64,000 nt of DNA from Actinacidiphila bryophytorum (GTDB lineage: Bacteria > Actinomycetota > Actinomycetes > Streptomycetales > Streptomycetaceae). Location of the stretch: the NCBI RefSeq assembly GCF_016916835.1, contig NZ_JAFFIX010000001.1:124001-188000 (forward strand), written 5' to 3'. The notes below the pieces were generated by a model. That model ran no database searches and had not been told where the DNA came from. It saw nothing but the letters and a program-made list of their open reading frames with translations. Positions 54,942 through 63,811 of the stretch are shown one piece after another; position 1 is the stretch's first letter, and every line of letters starts with the position of its first letter. The translations under genes were made by a program, and so were the position numbers.

Positions 54942-55991
54942 TCAGCTGGTGAAGACGCCCAGTTGCCGGCCGGGGAGGGTGGTCCAGGCGGTGGAGGGCG
55001 GGGTCGGGACGACCGCGTCGATGGTGCCCCCGACCCTGTCGGGAACACTGTTCCGCAGGACGCTGCCCGCCGAGTTCGTGCCGATCATCTGGACAGCCCC
55101 GCTGCTGCCGGCCTCGTTGCCGACGGCGATGTGGCGGATGCCGGCCGGGACCTGGCCCCAGTGGGTGAAGTCGGCGTCCGAGAAGGTGTCGGTCAGCTTC
55201 ATCGCCTCGAACAGCTGGAAGCTGTCGGTCAGGCCGGCGAGGAAGAGCGCCCTGCCCGTGGCCGGGGCGGTGGTGACCGAGATCTCCCGCAGGTGCGCGG
55301 GAGCGTGGTTGACCGGCGCCCACTCGCTCCAAGTGCCCGCCGTCGAGGGGTCCGTGGCGTTGGGCTTCAGCTGCTGGCGCTGGAAGAGCACACCGCCGAT
55401 GCCGAGTCCGAACAGCTCGATGCGGCCCAGGCTGTTCGTGGCGGCCGCGACCTGGCTGATCCAGCCGTTCGTCAGCGCCGCCCAGGGGGTCCAGGTGTCG
55501 ACTGCCGGCTTGGGGTTGGCCGGAGTCGGGAAGGTGTCGCTGCTGAGGACCTGGGTGCGGGTGAAGACCTGGCCGGAGGCGTTGGAGGCGAACACCTGCA
55601 GCGCGCCGTTCTGGTTGCGGGCGACGGACACGCTGACGAAGGCGGAGCTGTCGAACTTCGCCCACGGCGAGAAGCTGGAGTCGGCGCCCGCGACGATCTG
55701 GAACCGGTGCCACAACTGGCCGATACGGTCGATGGCGAAGACCTCGACCCGCCCGTCGACGTTCACCCCGGTCGCCATCGACCTGAACTCGTGCAGCGTG
55801 TCGAAGCCCGTGAACGGGACGAAGACCGCATTGCCCGGATGCGCGGCCTCAGGGTTCAGATGCGCGCGGAAGGCGTCGCCCGGCCCGTTCGTCCCGACCA
55901 CGCCCAGCGGCGCGCCCGCCTGGTTGGCGGCGGTCTCGGCGGTCAGCGCCACCGGTGCGCCCTGCAGGGGTTCGGCGTGTAGACGCCGCAC
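54942..55991 (-). CDS. C-terminal beta-propeller part of a secreted protein (frameshifted)
   Basis: A 349-aa open frame without its own signal peptide or ribosome site; GTG 55991 lies 48 nt inside the preceding ORF. It consists of about five blade-like repeats, each with a G-x-x-x-V/L-F segment, then G-x-V/L-x-x-R and a closing W-x-x-W (for example VEVFAIDRIGQLWHRFQIV ending FSPWAKF; then WTPWAAL, WSEWAPV, THWGQV and AWTTL). This resembles PLL-type or tectonin-like lectin propellers. The upstream ORF in another frame supplies a signal peptide and a helical region, so the two ORFs are probably one gene broken by a single-base shift near 55955-55965. It could still be translated by re-initiation. 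Confidence 0.7.
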   Translation of the reverse strand: MRRLHAEPLQGAPVALTAETAANQAGAPLGVVGTNGPGDAFRAHLNPEAAHPGNAVFVPFTGFDTLHEFRSMATGVNVDGRVEVFAIDRIGQLWHRFQIVAGADSSFSPWAKFDSSAFVSVSVARNQNGALQVFASNASGQVFTRTQVLSSDTFPTPANPKPAVDTWTPWAALTNGWISQVAAATNSLGRIELFGLGIGGVLFQRQQLKPNATDPSTAGTWSEWAPVNHAPAHLREISVTTAPATGRALFLAGLTDSFQLFEAMKLTDTFSDADFTHWGQVPAGIRHIAVGNEAGSSGAVQMIGTNSAGSVLRNSVPDRVGGTIDAVVPTPPSTAWTTLPGRQLGVFTS

Positions 55992-56623
55992 GTGGGCGTG
56001 AGCCGCTGCACGATCTTCTGGTTCGCCGCGATGATGTCCGCGCGCAGGGTGGTGGTGGACTGGCCGGCCTTCGCGGAGGCCGTCAGGGCGATCGGGCCGA
56101 TGATGTTCAGGTCGAAGGCGAGTTCGTCCACGGACGCCGGCGACGACACGTTGTTGATCTGGGCCTTGGCCACCTCGACGACATCGACGGCGTCACGTAC
56201 GAACGCCTTCAGGGCGTCGCCGTCGCCGAGGGTGTCGAAGCTCTCGAACTGCTCGATGACGGTGCCTGCGTGGCCGGTCGTCTCGGCTGCGGCGTCGGCG
56301 TCGACCTGGTTCTTGATGTCCGTGGACGACGCCTGGATCAGCGCCTGGATCTGCTGGATCAGGGCGGGGTCGTGCGCGCTGAACACGTACTTGTCGGCCA
56401 GGCCGTAGGCCGTCTGGGCGTAGCTGACGAACGGGATGATCTTGCCCAGGACGCCGAGCACCGGCCCGGCCGGGGTGTCCGCCCGGGCCGGCTGCGCGGA
56501 GGGCAGCGACGCCATCGTCATCGCGGCCGTCGCGGCCAGGGCCACTGCCGTGGCCCGGGCCTTGAAGCCCCGTGGCGGAGCCCGCAAGGACCCTCCGGGC
56601 GGCAACTCGATACCTGCACTCAT
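55943..56623 (-). CDS. N-terminal part of the secreted propeller protein
   Basis: A 226-aa ORF with a long signal peptide (basic region to about 23, then ATAVALAATAAMTMASLPSA ending near ARA). A helical domain (residues about 55-215) follows, including KIIPFVSYAQTAYGLADKYV, DPALIQQIQALIQASSTDI and STTTLRADIIAANQKIVQRL, then CGVYTPNPC. It ends abruptly as RAHRWR, where the overlapping frame continues with LQGAPVALTAETAANQAGAP. ATG 56623 follows GAGGAG by 6 nt. The helical domain plus propeller resembles secreted toxins or lectins of Streptomyces in layout, but I do not recognise it. Confidence 0.7.
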   Translation of the reverse strand: MSAGIELPPGGSLRAPPRGFKARATAVALAATAAMTMASLPSAQPARADTPAGPVLGVLGKIIPFVSYAQTAYGLADKYVFSAHDPALIQQIQALIQASSTDIKNQVDADAAAETTGHAGTVIEQFESFDTLGDGDALKAFVRDAVDVVEVAKAQINNVSSPASVDELAFDLNIIGPIALTASAKAGQSTTTLRADIIAANQKIVQRLTPTCGVYTPNPCRAHRWR

Positions 56624-56709
56624 GCTTCTCCTCGCGCACCACATATGTCAAAGCTCATGATTTCGGACAAGATCCACGAAATCTGCTGTCCACAGGTGAT
56701 ACGTGCCGG

Positions 56710-56752
56710 GGTTACGCCCCGACGGCTCTCTGGGCGCCGTCGGGGCGTAACC
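56710..56752 (-). terminator. Strong hairpin after the dockerin-loop protein gene
   Basis: A perfect 17-bp stem GGTTACGCCCCGACGGC/GCCGTCGGGGCGTAACC with a 9-nt loop lies 35 bp beyond the stop at 56787 on the minus strand and 87 bp before the next start. Confidence 0.85.
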
Positions 56753-57485: not shown

Positions 57486-57870
57486 CGAGTACTCCTTCGT
57501 CCTTCGCAGATGCGCCCGCCCACCGGTACGAGGGGAGGGCGCGGACCGTTCGACGTTTCAGGAGTGCCGGTGGAAAGGCATGAGTGGGGCGGTGTGGTCT
57601 CGACAGGGGATGTGATGAACCACACCGCCTTGCCCGCGTGTTCCTCCGCTGGCAGGAACAGTGTGCGGCCGCGACGGCGCCGGTTTCGCGAGTAATGGGT
57701 ACTCAATAAGGCTGCGCTCCGCAGCAACCCGTCCATCGTCGTCAACGCCTCATGAACCGGCCGCACCGCCGCAGGCGTAACCTGTCCGGCTATCTTCCTT
57801 TACCGAGATCAACCACGCCGGCCAGCGGCTGCTGGTCCACGGCGGGAAACGATCGTGAAGGACGCCTCTC
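57486..57870. other. Divergent intergenic region with an inverted repeat
   Basis: No gene is seen in these 385 bp between the divergent starts at 57485 and 57871. An 11-bp perfect inverted repeat, GGCGGTGTGGT (57588-57598) and ACCACACCGCC (57619-57629), with a 20-bp spacer lies about 100 bp upstream of the dockerin-loop gene and could be an operator or a leader hairpin. No firm -35/-10 pair was recognised. Confidence 0.5.
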
Positions 57871-58716
57871 ATGAACGACAGCCGGACCTCCCTCTTCTGC
57901 GACCTCGACCTGGCCGCCCGGATCGAACGCGCGGAATCACAGTTCATGGCGGAGTGCACTCGCGCCGTCGGCGGCCGCACCGGCGGAAACAGTTTCTCCA
58001 TCCCCCTCGCCGGTGGTGTCGCCTCCTTCGCCGAGGCCGACTCGCCGTACAACAAGGTCGCCGGTCTCGGCTTCGACGGAGTGCCCACCGCCGCCGAGCT
58101 GGACGAGGTGGAGCGGGCCTACGCCGCCTGCGGCGCACCCGTCCAGGTCGAGCTGTCGAACCTCGCCGACCCGGAGACCCTGGACGTCCTCACCGGCCGG
58201 GGCTACCGCCTGGTGTCCTTCGAGAACGTCCTCGGCAGGGCGCTGGCCGGGGGTGTCGAGCCGGCGGTGCCGCTCGGGATGGAGGTCCGGCGAACCCGTG
58301 AGGAGGAGTTCGAGGACTGGCTGGACGTGGTGGTGCGGGCCACGCTGCACCCCGACACCCAGGGGGTTCCCTGGTACGAGGACTTCCCGCGGCACATTCT
58401 GGAGAACGCGGAGCGGGACGGCGCGGCAGCCGGTGTCGTCCACTACAGCGCACTGCGCGACGGGGTCATCCTCGGCGGCGGCGGGCTGCGGGTCGCGGAC
58501 GGCATCGCGCAGATGGCGGGGGCGGGGACCGCGCCCGAACACCGGCGGCAGGGCGTCCAGACCGCGCTGACCACGGCCCGGCTCGCCGACGCCGCGGCGG
58601 CAGGGTGCGACATCGCCGTCGTGACCACGCAGCCGGGCTCCAAGTCCCAGGAGAACGTGCAGCGCCAGGGCTTCGGTGTGCTCTACACCCGCGCGGTCCT
58701 GGCCAAGCAGCCCTGA
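57871..58716 (+). CDS. GNAT-family acetyltransferase
   Basis: A 281-aa protein with a degenerate N-terminal half (residues 1-about 130, GGVASFAEADSPYNKVAGLG) and a C-terminal GNAT domain (about 138-280). The acetyl-CoA loop is in GAGTAPEHRRQGVQTALTTA and the last helix region is QENVQRQGFGVLYTRAV. Such two-part GNAT proteins are common in actinobacteria; substrates are unknown. ATG 57871 is used. It converges closely with the ABC-F gene, with only 14 bp between stops. Confidence 0.85.
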   Translation: MNDSRTSLFCDLDLAARIERAESQFMAECTRAVGGRTGGNSFSIPLAGGVASFAEADSPYNKVAGLGFDGVPTAAELDEVERAYAACGAPVQVELSNLADPETLDVLTGRGYRLVSFENVLGRALAGGVEPAVPLGMEVRRTREEEFEDWLDVVVRATLHPDTQGVPWYEDFPRHILENAERDGAAAGVVHYSALRDGVILGGGGLRVADGIAQMAGAGTAPEHRRQGVQTALTTARLADAAAAGCDIAVVTTQPGSKSQENVQRQGFGVLYTRAVLAKQP

Positions 58717-60452: not shown

Positions 60453-61904
60453 TCAGCGAGCGGTGTGCGGGGCCAGAACCGTAAGGTTTCCGTAGGGTTT
60501 CAGTGCCTGCGCGGTGTCCCCCTTCGCGTTTCCGAGAACGTGGTCGAGGAAAGCGAGGGTGGCCCCGGCGGTGGTGTGCAGGCTTCCCGTCCGGCCGAGT
60601 CCGCCCACGATCGGGGAGTACGGCGGCAGGTACAGGGGCGCGTCGGTGAAGGTCAGATGGGACGAGCCCGGTATGACGAGGCGGTAGCCGGTCGTGGTGC
60701 TGAGCCCGAGCACTTCGGTGATACGGGAGTGGTAGTCGGCGGTGCTGCCGCCGATGGTGTGGATGAGCGCGAGGGCGGGCTGGTGGTAGGGGGCCGGCGC
60801 CGGGTCGTGCGGGTAGCCGTCCAGATCGATCACGGCGGCAAACCGGGGATCCTGCCGGGCCGCCTGCAGGGCCGCGCTGCCACCGTAGGAGTGGCCGGTG
60901 ACCGCGGCGCGGGTGACGTCCAGGCGTCCCGCGAGCGGTCCGGGGACCTGGCCTCGCGTCATCTTGCCCAACTCCGTGAGGACGAAACTGAGGTCGGCGG
61001 CCCTGATCGCCGTCGCTGCGGCGGCCGCCTTCGCGCCTTCGGCGGCATCGCTCGTCGAGGCGAGCTTGGATCGGACGACCCGCCCGTCGTCGAGCAGCAC
61101 GGCCGTGGAGTCGTAGGGATGGTCGAGACCGGCGACGACGTAGCCGTGGCTGGCGAGTTCCTCCGCCCAGGCGGTGTTCTGGGTGCGGACCCCGCCGGCG
61201 CCCGGGGAGAACAGCACGACGGGAAAATGCTGGTGGCCGGGAACCGGCGGGACGTCGAGGTAGGCGCGGCTCCGCGCCTGCGGCAGTCCGTCCAGCACGA
61301 ATCCGGGAACGCCGACGGAGCCGGCCAGGGCGTCGGAGACGGTCCGCGACTCGGCTCGCGTGCGTCCCAGATACGGAGCGCGCCGTGCGTGCGGGGTGTT
61401 CCGCGCGGCGGGGTACCAGAGTTGGACCACCACGACGCGATGGTCGCGGGGATCTGCCGTGGCGGTTTCCGGGCGGGACATGTCGGTCCACTGCACGACC
61501 GTGGTGCCGACCGGGTAGCGGCCCGACGGGGCGGGGAAGTCGGGCCTGGGCAGTGCCCAGGCCGCGGCGGGACCCGCCGCTATCAGGCCCAGGCACACGG
61601 CCGATCCCGGAAGGGCGACCCACCAGCGGGCACGGCGGGCCTGCCGGCCGCTGCGCCTGGGCAGCAGCGGAGCGACCGCGAACGGCAGCGCGAGGAGTCC
61701 CCCTGCCAGGACCGGCACCGACTGCCAGCGCATGCCGGCCACGCACAGCACCGCCGAGGGGAGAACGACAAGAGCGGCCCCGGAGAACGCCATCGGCCGG
61801 CGGGCGGCCGCAGGGAACCAGCGAGCCAGCGCCAGGACCGCGGCCCCGCACACGAGAAGAATTTCCAAGAAGGACATCTGGAGTCCCGGGAGAATGTCAG
61901 TCAC
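60453..61904 (-). CDS. Membrane-anchored alpha/beta hydrolase (PAF-acetylhydrolase-like)
   Basis: A 483-aa protein. Three or four hydrophobic segments occupy about 10-125 (SFLEILLVCGAAVLALARWF, FSGAALVVLPSAVLCVAGM, ALPGSAVCLGLIAAGPAAAW). The extracellular hydrolase domain (about 130-480) has an oxyanion segment VVLFSPGAGGVRTQN, nucleophile elbow AAVTGHSYGGSAALQAA, acid AVIDLDGYP and the His in PGSSHLTFTDAP. This matches the PAF-acetylhydrolase/dienelactone-like group, suggesting ester or lipid hydrolysis. GTG 61904 has GAGGAG about 10 nt upstream; ATG 61877 is an alternative. It lies downstream of the ECF-Rieske pair on the same strand. Confidence 0.82.
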   Translation of the reverse strand: MTDILPGLQMSFLEILLVCGAAVLALARWFPAAARRPMAFSGAALVVLPSAVLCVAGMRWQSVPVLAGGLLALPFAVAPLLPRRSGRQARRARWWVALPGSAVCLGLIAAGPAAAWALPRPDFPAPSGRYPVGTTVVQWTDMSRPETATADPRDHRVVVVQLWYPAARNTPHARRAPYLGRTRAESRTVSDALAGSVGVPGFVLDGLPQARSRAYLDVPPVPGHQHFPVVLFSPGAGGVRTQNTAWAEELASHGYVVAGLDHPYDSTAVLLDDGRVVRSKLASTSDAAEGAKAAAAATAIRAADLSFVLTELGKMTRGQVPGPLAGRLDVTRAAVTGHSYGGSAALQAARQDPRFAAVIDLDGYPHDPAPAPYHQPALALIHTIGGSTADYHSRITEVLGLSTTTGYRLVIPGSSHLTFTDAPLYLPPYSPIVGGLGRTGSLHTTAGATLAFLDHVLGNAKGDTAQALKPYGNLTVLAPHTAR

Positions 61905-62060: not shown

Positions 62061-62786
62061 TCATGCCTCCGCGGGAGAATGCGGCCCGGGGGCGTAGACC
62101 TCGATGTCGCCGAGGCGTTCCCGTACGGGAATGCGGGGGAGGGGCGGCAGTGAACCCGGTGTGCGGTAGCCGGAGGCGGGCTGCGGGGCGCCGGCCAAGG
62201 TGAAGGCGGCCCCGTGGCAGGGGCAGACGAGCATGCTGCGTGCGGCGTCGAGGCCGAGCCTGCAGGCCTGGTGGGTACACGTCGCGGACACCGCGCGCAG
62301 ACGTCCCGAGGACCGGTGGAGGTAGCCCGCCATCGACCCGAGGTCGAAGTCCATGACCGCGCCCTCGGCAAGCTGCGCACTGGTGGCAACCTTGTGCCAC
62401 GTCCCGTGGACCGGCCGGACCTCCTCCTCGGGCTCTTCGGGCGCCCCCTGCCCCCCGCCGGTGCGGGTCCTGCGGAAGAGCAGCGGTTCGGTGACCAGGC
62501 CCGTACTGAAGGCGGCAGCACCGATGAGCCCCGCACGTACGAAACGGCGGCGGCGTGCCGACACCGCCGCAGCCGGCTGCGGGATGAGCACCCGGGACTG
62601 CTCGGCGGCGAGCCGCTTGCGCAGGCAGCTGACGAACGCTTCGGTCGGCCGGGCGTGGTCGGCGCGGAAGGCCGCCAGTTCGATGGCCGTGCTGATCTGC
62701 GCGACGTCCTCGTCGGACGCGGCGAACGGCTTCGGGCGCTTCCCGTCGGACAAGCGGGTCAGGTAGCGGTCCAGGGCGCTCGTCAT
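62061..62786 (-). CDS. Membrane Rieske [2Fe-2S] protein coupled to the ECF sigma gene
   Basis: A 241-aa protein. An N-terminal cytoplasmic domain (1-about 75) resembles anti-sigma N-terminal helices in composition. It is followed by ARRRRFVRAGLIGAAAF (a Tat-like Arg motif) and a membrane segment to about 104, then a Pro/Glu linker and a Rieske domain. Rieske cluster ligands are complete: Cys170 and His172 in CTHQAC, Cys188 and His191 in CPCHGAAF, with Cys175 and Cys190 available for the disulfide. The ATG overlaps the sigma factor stop by 4 bp (ATGA). The layout N-domain, membrane anchor, exported redox domain is what an anti-sigma redox sensor would need, although no direct evidence of sigma binding is visible. 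Confidence 0.85.
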   Translation of the reverse strand: MTSALDRYLTRLSDGKRPKPFAASDEDVAQISTAIELAAFRADHARPTEAFVSCLRKRLAAEQSRVLIPQPAAAVSARRRRFVRAGLIGAAAFSTGLVTEPLLFRRTRTGGGQGAPEEPEEEVRPVHGTWHKVATSAQLAEGAVMDFDLGSMAGYLHRSSGRLRAVSATCTHQACRLGLDAARSMLVCPCHGAAFTLAGAPQPASGYRTPGSLPPLPRIPVRERLGDIEVYAPGPHSPAEA

Positions 62787-63433
62787 CTCGGCCCCCCCTG
62801 CCCGGCGTACACATCCATCCCGGCCGCCTTCCGTATGGCGCGGTGCTGCAGGACCTTGGCGTTGGCGACGCTGATGTCCATCTCGGCGGCTGCCTCGCGG
62901 ATGCTGTAGCCGAGCATGAAACGCAGCACGAGGATGCGCCGGTGGCGTTCCGAGAGCCCCGCCAGGATGTGCGTGGCGTGCTCGCCTGCGCGGCTGGCCG
63001 GCTGCGCGGCCGGCGGCTGGGCGTACTCGTCCAGGTCCGCCGCGTCGACGTCGATGACGGTGACCTGCCGGCCCAGGGTGCGCTGCCAGTGACCGGCCAG
63101 CACCGTGCGGGCGGTGGCCAGGAGGTAGGCACGGACCTCGCCGACGGTGGCCGTGGTCCGCAACGACTTCAAGGCGGTCACGAACACCTGGGAGGTCAGG
63201 TCCTCGGCGTCCGGCCGGTTGCCGACCTTGCCGTACATCAGCCGGTGGATCCTGGCCACGTTGTCCTCGTAGATGGCCTCCCAGCCGGGGTACACCGCGG
63301 TCGGCAACTGCACGGGCTGGGTACCGGTGCCGTCCTTCCCCGCGGCCTGCACCGGTACCCCTCCCTCCTCCGGGCGGACCTGGTCCACAGGTCCATCCGG
63401 AAACTCCTCGCTTCTCAGCCGCAGCCTTCGCAT
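62783..63433 (-). CDS. ECF-type RNA polymerase sigma factor
   Basis: A 216-aa sigma factor with a poorly conserved 50-residue N terminus. Region 2 (about 48-115) includes RIHRLMYGKVGNRPDAEDLT and SQVFVTALKSL. Region 4 (about 158-210) includes GLSERHRRILVLRFMLGYSI and AEMDISVANAKVLQHRAIRK. It would direct RNA polymerase to a specific regulon, probably including its own operon. ATG 63433 has only a weak ribosome site. The Rieske gene is translationally coupled downstream, the position usually held by an anti-sigma factor. Confidence 0.9.
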   Translation of the reverse strand: MRRLRLRSEEFPDGPVDQVRPEEGGVPVQAAGKDGTGTQPVQLPTAVYPGWEAIYEDNVARIHRLMYGKVGNRPDAEDLTSQVFVTALKSLRTTATVGEVRAYLLATARTVLAGHWQRTLGRQVTVIDVDAADLDEYAQPPAAQPASRAGEHATHILAGLSERHRRILVLRFMLGYSIREAAAEMDISVANAKVLQHRAIRKAAGMDVYAGQGGPR

Positions 63434-63811
63434 CCAGGAACCGCCTCGCGTGTTTCTCGTGGGCCGTCGCACCCTGCCTCGCCCAGCCCGCGCGCGAGAC
63501 GGCGGGAGAGCCGGTGGGACCAGCGGGCCTCGGCCGAACGAGCCGGGCCGGTCACCTGTGAGATAGGCGAGGGGGTTACACGCGGGCATCGGCACGCCGA
63601 CCCGTCCGGGTAACTAGCCCTGCCATCGATTGTCGGCACCCGGGGCGGCCGCGGCGTGAGCAAAAAGTACTCATGCCGCCGGGCACGGCCGCCAGGACGG
63701 GGGCGCCGTGCTGCGGCGATCAGGACGTACTCGAACCCGCCACCGGCCGAGCGCTGTAACCCAGCGCCCTATTCCCAGGGCAGGACCACAGCTTCAGAAC
63801 GGACCGAGCAG
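63434..63811. other. Intergenic region upstream of the ECF gene, with a large hairpin
   Basis: These 378 bp separate the divergent starts of the sigma factor and the last gene. An imperfect hairpin at 63644-63693 has an outer GGCGGCCG/CGGCCGCC stem and an inner CGGCGTGAG/CTCATGCCG stem around an A-rich loop (CAAAAAGTA). No gene is seen; the sigma promoter is not identified. Confidence 0.5.

Follow-up and report, generated by a model that had tools for sequence, protein, structure and literature searches.

A candidate Rieske-type transmembrane regulator of an ECF sigma factor, with a predicted cupredoxin/phosphoesterase regulon

An ECF sigma factor gene and the gene for a Rieske protein with a predicted membrane anchor overlap in a 64,000-nucleotide stretch of the Actinacidiphila bryophytorum genome (the window), and comparison of related loci supports the coupling of these two genes as conserved across several actinobacterial families. 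Comparative promoter evidence likewise supports a tie between the sigma factor and two sets of genes, its own operon and an operon for redox proteins. The best explanation, and on balance a probable one, is that the Rieske protein is a transmembrane (anti-)sigma regulator of its neighbour with an autoregulated cupredoxin/phosphoesterase regulon.

The sigma-Rieske gene pair and its relatives

At the window locus both genes are read from the minus strand and their frames overlap by the four bases ATGA, just as the earlier note had reported (Table 1); alternative GTG codons are possible 5' of the ATG from which the sigma frame is counted. The sigma protein matches Sigma70_r2 and Sigma70_r4 above the Pfam cut-offs and carries regions 2 and 4 only, with no region 3 domain, which is the make-up of an ECF sigma factor. 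Its closest solved structure is BldN (6dxo_A, E 2e-10), and it scores 74.3 bits with the BldN-family model TIGR02952, whose curated cut-off is 206; by sequence it is a relative of the BldN family that stands outside its membership. Residues 129-201 of the partner protein match Pfam Rieske (PF00355) with 45 bits against a cut-off of 20.3. The cytochrome bc1 Rieske subunit QcrA was considered as its identity and rejected, the model NF050121 giving 17.6 bits against a cut-off of 275, and the gene context also speaking against it. Elsewhere, a contig scan that used the single protein as query hit Rieske domains and nothing more. Downstream of the Rieske gene, on the same strand (60453-61904), is a gene for a PAF-acetylhydrolase/PETase-like hydrolase with an N-terminal membrane region, which does not keep company with the sigma-Rieske module at other loci.

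Table 1. Features of the sigma-Rieske locus and motif matches in the window (positions in the window)
Feature	Position	Strand	Remarks
Rieske protein gene	62061-62786	-	241 aa; Pfam Rieske, AlphaFold model, fold search, family alignments
Rieske [2Fe-2S] domain, predicted exported	62082-62414	-	residues 125-235; C170 H172 C188 H191; disulfide C175-C190
Twin-arginine motif RRRRF and membrane anchor/signal segment	62487-62552	-	residues about 79-100; putative topology
Conserved N-terminal domain	62589-62786	-	residues 1-66; three predicted helices; presumed cytoplasmic, sigma-binding
ECF sigma factor gene	62783-63433	-	216 aa from ATG 63433; Sigma70_r2/r4 (Pfam)
Promoter motif GTAACCCCCTCGCCTATC	63562-63579	-	upstream of sigma-Rieske
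Same motif as sigma-Rieske	63756-63773	+	56 nt upstream of secreted ricin-B-lectin-domain gene, ATG about 63812
Same motif as sigma-Rieske	57777-57794	+	94 nt upstream of GNAT acetyltransferase gene 57871-58716
Motif, GTATC variant	56698-56715	-	upstream of putative secreted protein gene 55943-56644 (-)

How widely is this pair kept? Among 150 related genomes searched with the protein, only one other member of the window's family has a full-length relative; many members of a second family in the same order have one, and so do members of two more families. Profile searches were run on 395 genomes from the class and 296 from the phylum, and afterwards on 198 from a Mycobacterium-like genus (that of G108) and 35 from the family of G142; in these last two sets, 78 of the 198 and 14 of the 35 genomes have a match. 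The genomes with relatives are Streptomyces-, Catenulispora-, Mycobacterium- and Frankia-like, and the neighbourhood counts rest on the DNA around 80 loci. At 75 of these 80 the Rieske gene is immediately preceded by the sigma gene, and the frames of all but one of the pairs (74/75) are placed as for the ATGA overlap. Because the sigma gene is directly upstream at so many loci, nearly always with the same four-base overlap, the linkage is not chance, and a gene coupled to a sigma gene and conserved in relatives is what is looked for in a transmembrane anti-sigma factor. Of the five exceptions, one is the second paralogue of A. bryophytorum itself, two lie at the edges of contigs, one is a remnant, and the last is a match that is partial and broken. 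The earlier note had proposed just such a comparison of adjacency across actinobacterial genomes, and the pairing came through it; the pattern said there to tell against a regulatory pair, with Rieske genes regularly found among respiratory genes and away from the sigma gene, was not observed among the relatives.

In the window's own family the module is rare (two of about 90 genomes searched). The second Rieske paralogue of A. bryophytorum (contig C1; L067:4230-4940, minus strand) shares 44-48% identity and has the same N-terminal domain. It has no adjoining sigma gene, sits among large LuxR-type regulators, and has the promoter motif described below 148 nt upstream. Elsewhere, the sigma gene of G663 (L122) is followed by a tandem pair of Rieske genes from this family, and in the Mycobacterium-like genome G912 the Rieske gene (L197) is a C-terminal remnant with no sigma gene found alongside; there the module appears to be decaying.

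Architecture of the Rieske protein

Sequence and model agree on the three parts that the earlier note had described, an N-terminal domain followed by a Tat-like arginine motif with an anchor and then a cluster domain, with the topology as a prediction. An RRxxx motif of the twin-arginine kind is present in nearly all relatives. The segment after RRRRF in the window protein is weakly hydrophobic (the highest Kyte-Doolittle mean over 19 residues is 1.39, at residue 86), which would be typical of Rieske/Tat anchors rather than of a strong transmembrane helix. Residues 76-113 are of low model confidence and probably disordered.

The Rieske domain, which from its family would face the outside, is modelled for the greater part at a pLDDT above 90, and its closest folds are 8hn2 and PetC3 (5cxm). 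All four [2Fe-2S] ligands that had been picked out from the sequence (C170, H172, C188 and H191) are invariant in a 37-row alignment, as are the disulfide cysteines C175 and C190, and ligands and disulfide cysteines together are kept at 79 of the 80 loci; the protein has the CxHxxC and CxCH motifs, with both disulfide cysteines, of a bc-type Rieske protein. In respiratory Rieske clusters the potential is raised by Ser and Tyr hydrogen-bond donors, as seen in bc1 Rieske mutants. Where a high-potential protein would have both donors, in CPCHGSxY, the window protein has CPCHGAAF, and across the family the Ser is mostly T or A and the Tyr F (CPCHGAAF, CPCHSTSF and similar). Since these donors are mostly replaced, the cluster would have an intermediate midpoint potential, below that of the respiratory Rieske proteins.

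Residues 1 to about 66 are predicted to form three helices, with pLDDT of about 64-88 in blocks of ten residues. The mean fraction of the commonest residue is 0.67 in this N-terminal domain, 0.68 in the Rieske domain and about 0.30 in both linkers; judged by the alignment, the one domain is constrained as much as the other. A profile of the N-terminal domain run against 297 genomes found these Rieske proteins only, plus one marginal match in G151. Profile and sequence searches found no relative in Pfam or among PDB sequences, and Foldseek with the domain alone gave no match below E 3, a weak test for 66 helical residues. Nor did profiles and Foldseek match it to the known anti-sigma domain classes I, II and III, again a weak test for a short helical domain, and HX3CX2C, the motif of the zinc anti-sigma factors (ZAS), is absent from it. 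In mirror-tree comparisons the sigma factor correlates with the N-terminal domain at r 0.88 and with the Rieske domain at r 0.90, and so shows no preference for the former. From its conservation this would look like a dedicated partner-binding domain, with the sigma factor as the partner that I infer.

The cupredoxin-phosphoesterase operon and a shared promoter motif

Cupredoxin and metallophosphoesterase genes both belong to the module at 61 of the 75 loci, at 25 of them divergent from sigma-Rieske and at 36 downstream in the same direction. The cupredoxin is lipoprotein-like and of the plastocyanin/azurin family; the metallophosphoesterase is calcineurin-like and predicted to be Tat-exported. 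That no electron-transfer genes adjoin the pair, as the earlier note had stated, is right for the window copy, which is flanked by neither a cupredoxin nor a phosphoesterase gene, but fails for the relatives, 63 of 75 of which have the cupredoxin gene within the module, and for the rest of the same genome, where an unlinked cupredoxin lies behind the same promoter motif. The view drawn from it, that context gives an electron-transport role no support, has to be given up: the cupredoxin is part of the module, and context therefore gives no ground for dismissing electron transfer as the function of the Rieske protein.

In A. bryophytorum the unlinked cupredoxin-phosphoesterase operon is at C4:162-164 kb, and its phosphoesterase has 80% identity. 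The phosphoesterase gene likewise lies outside the immediate module in five more genomes that carry the sigma-Rieske pair, and the pairing itself persists where the cupredoxin/phosphoesterase genes are elsewhere (A. bryophytorum, G142, G186, G427 and G663). The phosphoesterase is present in one of 30 genomes without the pair. A comparison of the families common to at least two neighbours showed neither a cytochrome b nor an oxidase family within the 25 commonest of 103. G402 has a small ORF (L224, about 1500-2100) that encodes a Rieske domain but lacks the N-terminal one; the same motif stands before it, and the phosphoesterase gene follows just downstream. At two Catenulispora-like loci (L058:4979-6934 and L059:8094-10136) the module adjoins a gene in which sigma-70 region 2 is fused to a glycosyl-hydrolase catalytic core.

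In the DNA that precedes the sigma genes one element alone is strongly conserved, TGTAACCC-N6-CTATCT, and a weaker GTG comes after it. This motif precedes 72 of the 75 sigma genes; if its spacing may vary by one or two bases, every cupredoxin gene of the loci (63/63) has it in the 420 bp upstream. The 788 kb of loci contain 150 matches, against 14 for the reversed pattern; the strict motif has 10 matches in the 8-Mb genome of A. bryophytorum (reversed control 0), and the window has four where 0.01 are expected. The matches in the whole genome stand before sigma-Rieske, the second Rieske gene, the unlinked cupredoxin-phosphoesterase operon, two large LuxR/AAA-type regulators (C1:200993 and C1:202698), an MpaB/Lcp-type oxygenase (C7:116786), the ricin-B-lectin and the GNAT genes; two have no assigned gene. 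The ricin-B-lectin-domain gene (from about 63812 in the window, plus strand; L129:1751-2293) diverges from the sigma gene, and its secreted product is predicted to be a regulon member. An enlarged regulon that includes regulators and an oxygenase is thus predicted for this organism.

In other genomes the motif matches chiefly the module's own genes. For G142 and for two Mycobacterium-like genomes the control gives as many matches as the motif does, so that the motif alone is no genome-wide predictor there. It is present at the unlinked operons of A. bryophytorum, G186 and G402; it was not found at the cupredoxin-phosphoesterase operon of G001, whose genome has no sigma-Rieske pair, and this motif pattern has no match at the unlinked operon of G142. 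At divergent Mycobacterium-like loci (L062, L098, L159 and others) a gene for a small secreted protein (74 aa in L062) just downstream of the Rieske gene has its own copy of the motif right before it.

BldN promoters read CGTAAC-N16-CGTTGA, with GTAAC as the -35 core (PMC2375139). The GTAAC half of the motif is the same as this core, and in many members NNNTGA follows at 16-17 bases; the simplest reading is therefore that the BldN-like sigma recognises the motif. CTATC is possible as a -10 element, and GTAAC-N16/17-NNNTGA is the better fit to BldN spacing. Since the conserved CTATC then sits in the would-be spacer, a second DNA-binding factor is possible. On these patterns it is very likely that the sigma factor controls this set of promoters.

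A possible mechanism, its rivals and known systems

How might the pair work? The sigma factor and its transmembrane regulator would be a translationally coupled pair, in which the N-terminal domain of about 66 residues stays cytoplasmic and holds the ECF sigma. I regard this binding as likely, and the net effect of the Rieske protein on the sigma factor as probably inhibitory. The Tat-type segment would anchor the protein, with the folded, cluster-loaded Rieske domain outside, as its family suggests. A change in the [2Fe-2S] cluster (reduction, oxidation or loss) would alter or destabilise the Rieske protein and free the sigma, and the state of the cluster may well be the signal; oxygen, which the earlier note had offered as one, gains no specific support. 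The change might come about by electron exchange with the cupredoxin, whose role as redox partner of the Rieske protein I put forward only tentatively. Once freed, the sigma would act at the TGTAACCC-N6-CTATCT promoters to switch on both its own operon and that of the cupredoxin and metallophosphoesterase, a step for which the comparative evidence is strong, and in A. bryophytorum the predicted regulon would add the second Rieske protein, LuxR-type regulators, the MpaB/Lcp-like oxygenase, the lectin and the acetyltransferase. A bolder version seems rather doubtful: an electron relay between the exported Rieske domain and a cupredoxin made by the regulon itself, widespread in actinobacteria, that serves as a transmembrane signal and gates an ECF sigma by way of a sigma-binding domain of a new class, with feedback through its own electron acceptor. 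The conserved linkage and the promoter logic were computed; binding, the direction of its effect and redox signalling I infer. The N-terminal domain without detectable relation to known anti-sigma domains, the mirror-tree that does not discriminate, the second paralogue without a sigma gene and the weakly hydrophobic anchor all count against the regulator explanation, as does the conserved CTATC with its hint of a second DNA-binding factor.

The redox-sensing sigma/anti-sigma pair of the earlier note is favoured by the coupling, by the constraint on the N-terminal domain and by promoter ties to a redox-protein operon, and it has one main rival, which I judge unlikely: that the Rieske protein is an extracytoplasmic electron-transfer component, passing electrons to the cupredoxin and perhaps serving the phosphoesterase, and merely co-expressed with a sigma factor that governs all of these genes and has another anti-sigma or none. 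Rieske proteins classically have small copper proteins as redox partners, and a cupredoxin is in the module; the second Rieske gene of A. bryophytorum without a sigma gene and the small Rieske-domain ORF of G402 behind the same promoter fit this rival too. However, the Rieske gene keeps to the sigma gene even when the cupredoxin genes are elsewhere, electron transfer has no need of a conserved extra N-terminal domain, and cytochrome b and oxidase families are absent from the commonest neighbours.

Regulated proteolysis is the common mode among membrane anti-sigma factors. The protein could thus be a transmembrane anti-sigma factor released in that way and not by redox, its Rieske domain being mainly structural or binding a ligand or partner, and the long low-confidence stretch modelled between anchor and Rieske domain would suit this; but with the cluster ligands and both disulfide cysteines kept by 79 of 80 members, and a redox protein encoded in the module, it is quite unlikely. 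FecR is a regulator that its sigma needs for full activity. RskA is described as a dual-function membrane regulator of the ECF sigma SigK (PMC7509140), so there are models for a Rieske protein that is a positive or dual regulator needed for full sigma activity. No feature of the present pair points specifically to activation, however, and I consider this improbable.

For the preferred reading, a Rieske-type transmembrane regulator, there are several partial parallels. RskA, FecR and RseA each have a cytoplasmic N-terminal sigma-binding part, a single anchor and an exported sensor, and their genes adjoin the sigma gene. The window protein would have the same layout, whereas their sensor domains differ from a Rieske domain and it has no recognisable class I anti-sigma domain. 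It resembles PetC3, a cyanobacterial plasma-membrane Rieske protein (5cxm; Z 12.2, rmsd 2.5 Å over 95 residues), and other bc/b6f-type Rieske proteins in the fold of its Rieske domain, its cluster ligands and its disulfide cysteines; to my knowledge, these have no such N-terminal domain and no sigma gene. RsbN, the membrane anti-sigma factor of Streptomyces BldN, defines class III (PMC8103513). The likeness to BldN-RsbN lies in the closest solved sigma structure, in the -35 GTAAC and in a membrane-anchored partner encoded with the sigma; the differences are a sigma factor well below the BldN-family cut-off (74 bits against 206), an exported Rieske domain on the partner and an extra conserved CTATC in the spacer, and no sequence match was found between the N-terminal domain and RsbN. 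According to PMC3427169 (with its ref. 21), RsmA of sigmaM (S. coelicolor) and RshA of SigH (M. tuberculosis) are reported [2Fe-2S] anti-sigma factors, with sigma binding by RsmA reported as cluster-dependent. An anti-sigma role with a [2Fe-2S] cluster, reported for these, is proposed for the window protein; their cluster is within a cytoplasmic sigma-binding protein (HATPase-like or ZAS), whereas here a Rieske fold with two His ligands would carry it on the outer side of the membrane.

In the open literature searched I found no Rieske-type anti-sigma factor with a cupredoxin/phosphoesterase regulon, and the 2021 ECF reclassification could already list a Rieske gene beside sigma factors of this group. 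Transmembrane anti-sigma factors are common, and sensing of the outside is known for damage, ligands and proteases. The present pair points to an apparently undescribed mode of extracytoplasmic redox sensing, with a predicted core regulon that is small and sharply defined, consisting of its own promoter and the cupredoxin-phosphoesterase operon, and that is found in many actinobacterial genomes. If this is true, Rieske proteins would be extended from electron carriers to signal receptors, as exported sensors.
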